From Roseicella sp. DB1501 (GTDB lineage Bacteria > Pseudomonadota > Alphaproteobacteria > Acetobacterales > Acetobacteraceae), in the NCBI RefSeq assembly GCF_013112485.1, contig NZ_JABFHG010000007.1:248001-312000 (forward strand): a stretch of DNA of 64,000 nt. The letters are read 5' to 3'. Position numbers and translations under genes: made by a program. Positions 7,432-9,084 of the stretch are shown piece by piece. Under the pieces are notes generated by a model. The model was not told the DNA's origin and ran no database searches. It saw only the letters and a list, made by a program, of their open reading frames with translations. The number at the start of each line of letters is the position of its first letter. Within the stretch, counting starts at the first letter, position 1.

Positions 7432-8946
7432 TCAGTGGGCGACCTGCAGCGCCTCCTCGGCCGCGATGCCGAGGCATTCCTCGATCTGCGCCCGCAGCCG
7501 GCGCAGGTTGCGGTGCTGCGCGAAGCTCCGCTTCAACGCCCGTTGCGCCTCGATGCCAAGTGCCGGCAGGTCGCGCGCCGGGCAGCCGATATCGGCGGCG
7601 ATGCCCGCCAGCAGCCCGGCCAGCGTGCCTTCGAAGGCAGAGGCGGGCGGCGGCTGCACATGGTGCACCGAGAGGCGCGAAAGCAGCGGCGCCGGGATGC
7701 CGCGCGTCTCGTTCGCTGCCATCACCCAGACCACATGCCGCAGATCGGCCGTGGTGCGGAGGCATTCGTCGAACCAGTTGGCGGCACTCTCCGGCTCGAT
7801 CATGGCGAGCAGCGTGTCATGCGCCCGGCCGTTGCTGTCGCGCTGGCCGCCGGCCTTCTCGATCTCGTCGAGGAAGAGCACCGGGTTCGGCGCATGCAGC
7901 CGGGCGAGTTCGGCGACCGGCCAGGCGGGCGTCGCGGCCGACCAGCCGCGCGCCGTGCCCTGCAGGCAGCGATTGTCCGTCGCACCGCCGAGGTTGAGGC
8001 CAGCGAAGGGCAGGTCGAGGACCTGGGCCAGCCGGCGGGCGAACCAGGTCTTCCCGATGCCGGGCGCCCCAACCAGCAGGATCGGCCGGACCCGCGGCGA
8101 GGGCCGGCCGGCATGCGCGGCGAGAGCGAGGGTGCGGCGGATCTCCTTCAGCGGCGCGGCGAAGGCCGGCGCCTGCTCCGCAAGCTGGTCGATGCGTCGC
8201 CCGGCATCGCGCGGCACCTGCCGCAGCGGCATCGGTGCGGTCAGCGGCTGGTAGGAGAGCCATTCGACGCGGTCGTTCGGCGGCTCGAAGGGCTGCAGCA
8301 CCCGCACGGCGTTCGGCAACGGCTTGGGCCGTGGGGGCGGGGGCGGCTCGGCCGCGACGGGCGCCGGCGCCACGGCGGCCGGCAGGCCCAGCGCCTCCGC
8401 CAGGCGGCGCTGCAGCGGCCGGCTGCTATCGGGTCCCTGGACATGGCGCAGCCAAAGATCGGCGGAGAGGCGGCTGGCGAGCACGAAATGCCGTAGCCGC
8501 GCGGGATTCGCGGCAGCGGCGCCGAGGCCGCGCGCCTCGCTGTGCAGCCGTTGCTGCAGCGCCTCGATGCAGCTCATGGCGCCGAGGCGCGAGAGCGGGC
8601 CACCGCGCTCGGTCACGATCCGGGTCGCGGCGAGGACGAGATCGGAGCCCTGGGCGAAGCGGGCGGCGATGGCGCCGAAGCGCAGGGCGAATTCCAGCAA
8701 GCCGGCATCGTCGCCGGCCTGCAACGGCCCCTCGCCGATACGGGAGGGAAAGAGCGGGGAACGGAGATGGTCGAGCAGCGCCGCCTCGAGCGCCACCAGC
8801 TCCTCGCGCTCGATGGCGAGCCAGAGCCAGAGCGGCGGCGTCCTCTCATCCCCGAAGAGGAGCGCGGAGCCCTGCGGCGTCGTTTCGTTTGTCTGGCAAT
8901 CGGTGGATGCGGGCACGACGTGGCTGTCAATCTGCGTATCGGGCAC
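7432..8946 (-). CDS. Lon-type AAA ATPase lacking a protease domain
   Basis: 504 residues from a GTG at 8946. Residues 1-195 are helical with no recognised domain, followed by a proline-rich linker (about 199-210). The AAA module has Walker A GAPGIGKT (293-300), Walker B VLFLDEIEKA (356-365) and sensor 1 in WVMAANE (407-413). The stretch from Walker B through IPAPLLSRLSVHHV follows the AAA module of Lon protease almost position by position. The protein ends about 65 residues after this, with no S16 protease domain and no catalytic Ser-Lys dyad. It may be an unfoldase or remodelling chaperone; that role is inference. It is convergent with the FkbM gene, and no partner gene is adjacent. Confidence 0.8.
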   Translation of the reverse strand: MPDTQIDSHVVPASTDCQTNETTPQGSALLFGDERTPPLWLWLAIEREELVALEAALLDHLRSPLFPSRIGEGPLQAGDDAGLLEFALRFGAIAARFAQGSDLVLAATRIVTERGGPLSRLGAMSCIEALQQRLHSEARGLGAAAANPARLRHFVLASRLSADLWLRHVQGPDSSRPLQRRLAEALGLPAAVAPAPVAAEPPPPPRPKPLPNAVRVLQPFEPPNDRVEWLSYQPLTAPMPLRQVPRDAGRRIDQLAEQAPAFAAPLKEIRRTLALAAHAGRPSPRVRPILLVGAPGIGKTWFARRLAQVLDLPFAGLNLGGATDNRCLQGTARGWSAATPAWPVAELARLHAPNPVLFLDEIEKAGGQRDSNGRAHDTLLAMIEPESAANWFDECLRTTADLRHVVWVMAANETRGIPAPLLSRLSVHHVQPPPASAFEGTLAGLLAGIAADIGCPARDLPALGIEAQRALKRSFAQHRNLRRLRAQIEECLGIAAEEALQVAH

Positions 8947-9084
8947 GGGCGGAGCTCGCTCCCTAAATTCACGAACTTGAGAGACTAGAGAACATGGTCC
9001 TCATACATTTGTGAATACAATTCTACGAAACGAAAGCGGAATGAATTCCGTGGTTGCAACGTGGCGGGAGCCGTCCGTCCAGCA

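Follow-up and report, generated by a model that had tools for sequence, protein, structure and literature searches.

Can a Lon-type motor exist as a protein in its own right, with no protease on the same chain? This question is raised by a gene in the window, i.e., the whole stretch of 64,000 nucleotides of Roseicella sp. DB1501 analyzed here. In teaching, Lon is presented as a motor and a protease on one chain, and ClpX functions with or without ClpP. In an earlier note, made from the sequence alone, the coordinates of the gene (7432-8946) were given exactly; the strand, which was left out there, is the minus strand, and a plus-strand reading of the same interval as a gene was rejected. The minus-strand frame runs without internal stops and encodes 504 residues (Table 1). 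Its start residue, in the context (V/L)PD, is common to the window protein and its orthologues. When compared with three same-genus orthologues (Nei-Gojobori method), dN/dS was 0.10-0.16 for residues 24-190 and 0.13-0.19 for the AAA+ module, against 0.41-0.55 for the linker between them. Because of the shared start and the low dN/dS in both domains, we conclude that the gene is real and under selection.

Table 1. Gene, domains, motor residues and upstream element, in positions of the window
Feature	Position	Strand	Remarks
Whole gene, 504-aa protease-less Lon-type AAA+ protein	7432..8946	-	GTG at 8946, TGA at 7434-7432
Conserved upstream element GAATTGTATTCACAAA	9008..9023	-	~60-75 nt before the start codon
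N-terminal domain, residues ~27-190	8377..8868	-	Predicted all-helical, with low to moderate confidence
Pro/Ala-rich linker, residues ~191-226	8269..8376	-	Predicted disordered; evolves faster than both domains
Lon-type AAA+ module (alpha/beta + alpha subdomain), residues 227-504, to the C-terminus	7435..8268	-	Profile, PDB, AlphaFold, Foldseek
Walker A GAPGIGKT, residues 293-300	8047..8070	-	Lys in 68/68 family rows
Pore-loop-1 region GTARGWSAATPAWP, residues 330-343	7918..7959	-	Trp335 at the position of Lon's substrate-gripping Tyr
Walker B VLFLDE, residues 356-361	7864..7881	-	Asp and Glu each in 65/68 family rows
Sensor-1 Asn412	7711..7713	-	68/68 family rows
Arginine finger Arg424	7675..7677	-	68/68 family rows
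Sensor-2 Arg482	7501..7503	-	67/68 family rows

By profile and sequence as well as by predicted fold and the distance between Walker A and B, LonA comes nearest to the AAA+ module (residues ~230-504). The Pfam AAA family (PF00004) covers residues 289-428 (2.8e-15), and the top NCBIfam model is lon (TIGR00763), which is matched in its AAA part only (1.8e-25, 89.6 bits) and thus far below its whole-protein curated cut-off of 608 bits. This model was also matched by 19/19 members of the family alignment. The competing NCBIfam scores of the window protein were 19.6 bits for ClpX, 17.9 for HslU and 12.0 for RuvB, and the Pfam models RuvB_N and AAA_3 remained below cut-off. With the Lon profile so far ahead, an identity of the ClpX, HslU, RuvB or MoxR type was rejected; the module had rightly been called Lon-type in the earlier note, and the closer match to another AAA clade that it had suggested looking for was not seen. 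The top PDB chains were human LONP1 (1.6e-19) and bacterial Lon, and all of the 50 matches listed by Foldseek for the AlphaFold model were Lon. In the full-length model, the AAA+ module has pLDDT mostly >90 and the final helix spans residues 481-503 of 504, so that nothing follows the AAA+ alpha subdomain, at the point where Lon's protease would start. Since the AlphaFold alignment (window protein, L041 and Lon segments, with orthologues excluded) was largely Lon, this fold result depends in part on the sequence result.

The window protein is therefore of the Lon type in its motor, and it lacks the domain by which Lon is defined, S16. A Pfam search of the protein gave no match to S16 (Lon_C, PF05362), the protease domain with the Ser-Lys dyad, or to the substrate-binding N-domain of Lon, as had been proposed, and no S16 match was found within the window. 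In the whole genome, PF05362 matched two places only, both of them full Lon frames (856 and 970 aa) on other contigs. Because S16 is confined to these two full-size frames, a protease missed through a frameshift was rejected. The second Lon (970-aa frame, G000:C1 609319-612803) directly adjoins a second FtsH, while the usual clpX-lon pair lies on C43.

The motor residues were then compared between 40 Lon rows and 68 rows of the family, of which 21 belong to the window clade and 47 do not. Compared with the LonA module (TIGR00763; LONP1, 7ksm; bacterial Lon, 6on2), the window protein shares Walker A and B, sensors 1 and 2, the arginine finger, an aromatic residue in pore-loop 1 and the predicted fold, and its ATPase motor residue set is complete. 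Walker A Lys and Walker B Asp are 60 residues apart, as in 40/40 aligned Lons; this spacing is 60 in LonA and 82 in LonBA (PMC9569914). The window protein differs from LonA in the absence of S16 and of the Lon N-domain, at an identity of 25-36%. It also has Trp for Tyr in pore-loop 1, where the family has Trp in 66/68 rows, with one Phe and one Tyr (aromatic in 68/68), and Lon has Tyr in 40/40. The pore-loop-2 position, which is aromatic in most Lons, is non-aromatic here, and the inter-subunit motif DPEQ of Lon is replaced by EPES. In human LONP1, threading is driven by the tyrosines of the pore loops together with the arginine finger and DPEQ, and the counterparts of the motor residues thread substrate and sense nucleotide (PMC12994072).

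The region preceding the motor was described in the earlier note as a novel, unrecognized N-terminus followed by a proline-rich linker, and all of these points were borne out. Residues 1-211 of the window protein and 17 orthologues matched no Pfam family, apart from a bpX6 match at 0.005 in two members of the N-domain set, which is too weak for use. A profile of the N-domains of the 17 orthologues found no PDB chain better than E=1.4. The pLDDT of this domain was mostly 50-70 in the full-length model and 46 when it was predicted alone from a single sequence; that of residues 186-231 was <50. The N-domain cannot be aligned even to those of sister proteins, and its profile, compared with two relative sets (two other family branches, with small alignments), gave probabilities of 0.9% and 0.2%. 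The domain is nonetheless conserved and under purifying selection. It seems that either one conserved motor has been joined to varied N-terminal regions, or these regions have diverged beyond recognition.

Of 398 genomes sampled from the same bacterial family, 26, in nine genera, contained orthologues with 63-89% identity. In two other genera and in two genomes of the window's own genus, contig ends interrupt the gene within or close to the linker, probably as an assembly effect of the repetitive linker. More distant relatives (34-42% identity over AAA+) occur in the same bacterial family, elsewhere in the Alphaproteobacteria and in further classes of Proteobacteria; among the matches listed for the latter two, most of those below ~160 bits were true Lons of ~800 aa and were not counted. 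A profile search of genome contigs likewise returned mostly true Lons among the matches listed. Plasmid copies, which read 'AAA family ATPase' or 'hypothetical protein' where they are annotated, were found in Azospirillum, Acidiphilium, Roseomonas, Bradyrhizobium, Variovorax, Klebsiella and others, and a phage search with a divergent relative gave only four weak unannotated matches. Thus, the proposal that a stand-alone Lon-like remodeller would be a new type of protein for this group was not supported: the protein has orthologues in the same bacterial family, and protease-less relatives are widespread in Proteobacteria and on plasmids. Our literature search, which covered subscription literature in part, found no paper on a protease-less Lon-type family and no characterized member of it. 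The family is already in sequence databases, and its description as a protein was not found in the literature searched.

The next gene downstream of the AAA+ gene encodes an FkbM-type methyltransferase on the opposite strand. The survey of neighborhoods that the earlier note had recommended revealed that the neighbors of orthologues vary by genus (FkbM methyltransferase, purine phosphorylase-like protein, NAD synthase, luciferase-like monooxygenase and others). Neighbor genes, recognized by a simple rule based on conservation and identified in part, were unrelated housekeeping genes, and no constant partner was found near window-clade orthologues. The window-clade gene is isolated and chromosomal, without a constant partner. 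Several other arrangements were observed among divergent relatives. At two loci (L168 and L171), a TniB/TniQ-type transposition module that includes a large transposase-like protein lies ~260 bases downstream of a relative. A DUF2130 gene stands directly 3' of the AAA+ gene at L258:7397-8827 and L302:6965-8239, one of which is on a conjugative Bradyrhizobium plasmid. At several loci, a metallophosphoesterase gene overlaps the AAA+ gene.

The relationship to Lon was further examined in a maximum-likelihood tree built quickly from 96 AAA+ domains (SH-aLRT only, no bootstrap). The 39 Lons formed one group (SH-aLRT 99) and 52 protease-less proteins another (96), in which the window clade (100) lies within a 44-row set supported at 98. 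L048, a protein of a Lachnospiraceae bin initially labelled Lon, fell outside both groups and is a 444-aa protease-less protein. The outgroup joins are weak, and the tree would fit either order of events, with the protease lost from this family or acquired later by Lon. One clade unites the window protein with an unnamed 'AAA family ATPase' family (WP_338928179.1 on a Roseomonas mucosa plasmid; WP_011930677.1 on pACRY02), which has the same C-terminal protease-less module and the same motor residues. The N-regions of that family cannot be aligned to that of the window protein, and its genes are often accessory, carried on plasmids or located beside transposition genes, in contrast to the chromosomal window clade. 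A short beta/gammaproteobacterial type (WP_068673841.1 on a Variovorax plasmid) belongs to the same tree family and has the same motor residues, but is mostly ~320-350 aa long, with little N-domain and an [IM]GF tip. ClpX, HslU and FtsH share with the window protein the AAA+ unfoldase class, to which the latter would belong by inference; they differ in profile score (15-20 bits vs ~90 for Lon) and lie outside its family in the tree.

Based on these results, we favor, with some reserve, the reading that the window protein is a stand-alone Lon-type AAA+ unfoldase or remodeller. Because all motor residues are kept, including the aromatic Trp of pore-loop 1, an ATP-driven unfoldase or remodeller is a sound inference, and the family probably unfolds or remodels proteins without digesting them. 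By analogy with Lon, from which hexamer, ATPase activity and threading are all carried over, the subunits would probably form a hexameric ATPase ring. The helical N-domain, held on a flexible proline-rich linker, would select a substrate or an adaptor, and a polypeptide would be pulled or threaded at the expense of ATP by pore loops with Trp335 at their tips. With the protease absent, the substrate would not be cut but unfolded, disassembled or refolded. The non-aromatic pore-loop 2, EPES in place of DPEQ, and the absence of a partner gene travelling with the AAA+ gene speak against a remodeller. If the reading is true, a widespread and conserved family with a complete motor and the protease dropped would represent a natural unfoldase-only version of Lon, which would be useful for studying the action of the Lon motor alone and the assembly of the ring without a protease.

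Several other explanations were weighed. The protein might be a switch-type or regulatory AAA+ protein that acts with a dedicated partner and was domesticated from a mobile-element or defence family, which we regard as rather unlikely. Many divergent relatives are plasmid-borne or beside transposition genes, at least seven loci have a metallophosphoesterase gene as a direct or close neighbor of the AAA+ gene (seen near it at L234, L242, L248, L250, L256, L258, L260 and L263), and DUF6634 adjoins several relatives (L162, L164, L170, L253, L258, L260). Some of the phosphoesterases match the candidate defence model PDC-S10 (2.2e-8 and 2.7e-12). However, the window clade is chromosomal and has neither of these partners, and the threading aromatic is kept in the whole family. 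A PADLOC search of the window protein gave no convincing match to a model of a known anti-phage defence AAA+ protein; the matches of the AAA+ proteins to PADLOC were weak and limited to the P-loop neighborhood, the best for the window protein being IetA (4.8e-5).

Another explanation, which we consider improbable on the present evidence, is that the protein is the ATPase half of a split protease, in which the ring would feed a separate peptidase docked by the C-terminal tail. The AAA+ tail sits where Lon's protease attaches, and its composition is unusual: in 72 family members, 41 tails end in His, compared with 2.3% His overall. In the short beta/gammaproteobacterial relatives, an [IM]GF motif, preceded by a variable basic stretch, is found at or within 3 residues of the C-terminus in 20/20 further loci (L277-L296), although these come from one order-wide sample of related rows, so that the counts overstate independence. 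VGF near the end was seen in Klebsiella and Aeromonas plasmid copies and MGF in a Variovorax copy, and the protease-less protein of the Lachnospiraceae bin (L048:2384-3715) ends in SVIGF. ClpX and ClpA dock ClpP via IGF loops (PMC9035409), and the [IM]GF tips of the short relatives suggest, by this resemblance, docking of a separate peptidase. On the other side, the window protein ends in QVAH, and the tails of its orthologues vary: the last residue of 25 window-clade tails is H in 13, C in 7, S in 3 and N in 2, and none of the 25 carries an IGF tip. No peptidase gene was recognized beside any member examined; moreover, docking is deduced from one tripeptide in rows related by descent. A broader proposal is a long shot: Lon-type AAA+ proteins without a protease would form a new class of unfoldases for separately encoded peptidases, docked via their C-terminal tails, with the [IM]GF tip of the short branch on ClpP and another tip in use in the window's branch. 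If true, Lon-type motors would exist in a split, ClpXP-like form. The [IM]GF tip of the short relatives makes service to ClpP by Lon-type motors a directly testable question. It was also observed that beta/gammaproteobacterial protease-less members at L235-L245 have an [IMV]GF tip.

It is very improbable that the protein acts as a regulatory subunit which enters the hexamers of the cell's Lon and modulates them. The module is of the same type and the genome encodes two full Lons, but the AAA+ core is ~35% identical to theirs, the inter-subunit motif is altered, and relatives have very different N-termini. A degenerate remnant of Lon or a frameshifted Lon, to which the missing protease might point, has a negligible chance, given the intact frame, the low dN/dS, a clade separate from Lon, the lack of any S16 remnant outside the two full Lons, and orthologues that are all protease-less.

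Besides the protein itself, the region upstream of the stand-alone Lon-type gene contains a conserved element, GAATTGTATTCACAAA, with the inverted repeat GAAT-TGT-ATTC. Among 17 orthologue upstream regions examined, its 13-base core is exact in 8 (besides or including that of the window) and has one mismatch in another, and the element is kept although the upstream gene of the orthologues differs. In other genera, TTCACA...GAATAC stands at a comparable upstream position. The element is a candidate promoter or operator. Single-sequence folds, examined for a hairpin sequestering the start codon, were inconsistent with one another. The exact core occurs once in the genome, at 9008-9023. The sole other near copy in the genome, with one mismatch (L276, 1501-1513), is located ~440 nt upstream of a PrkA-like AAA+ gene and may be there by chance.
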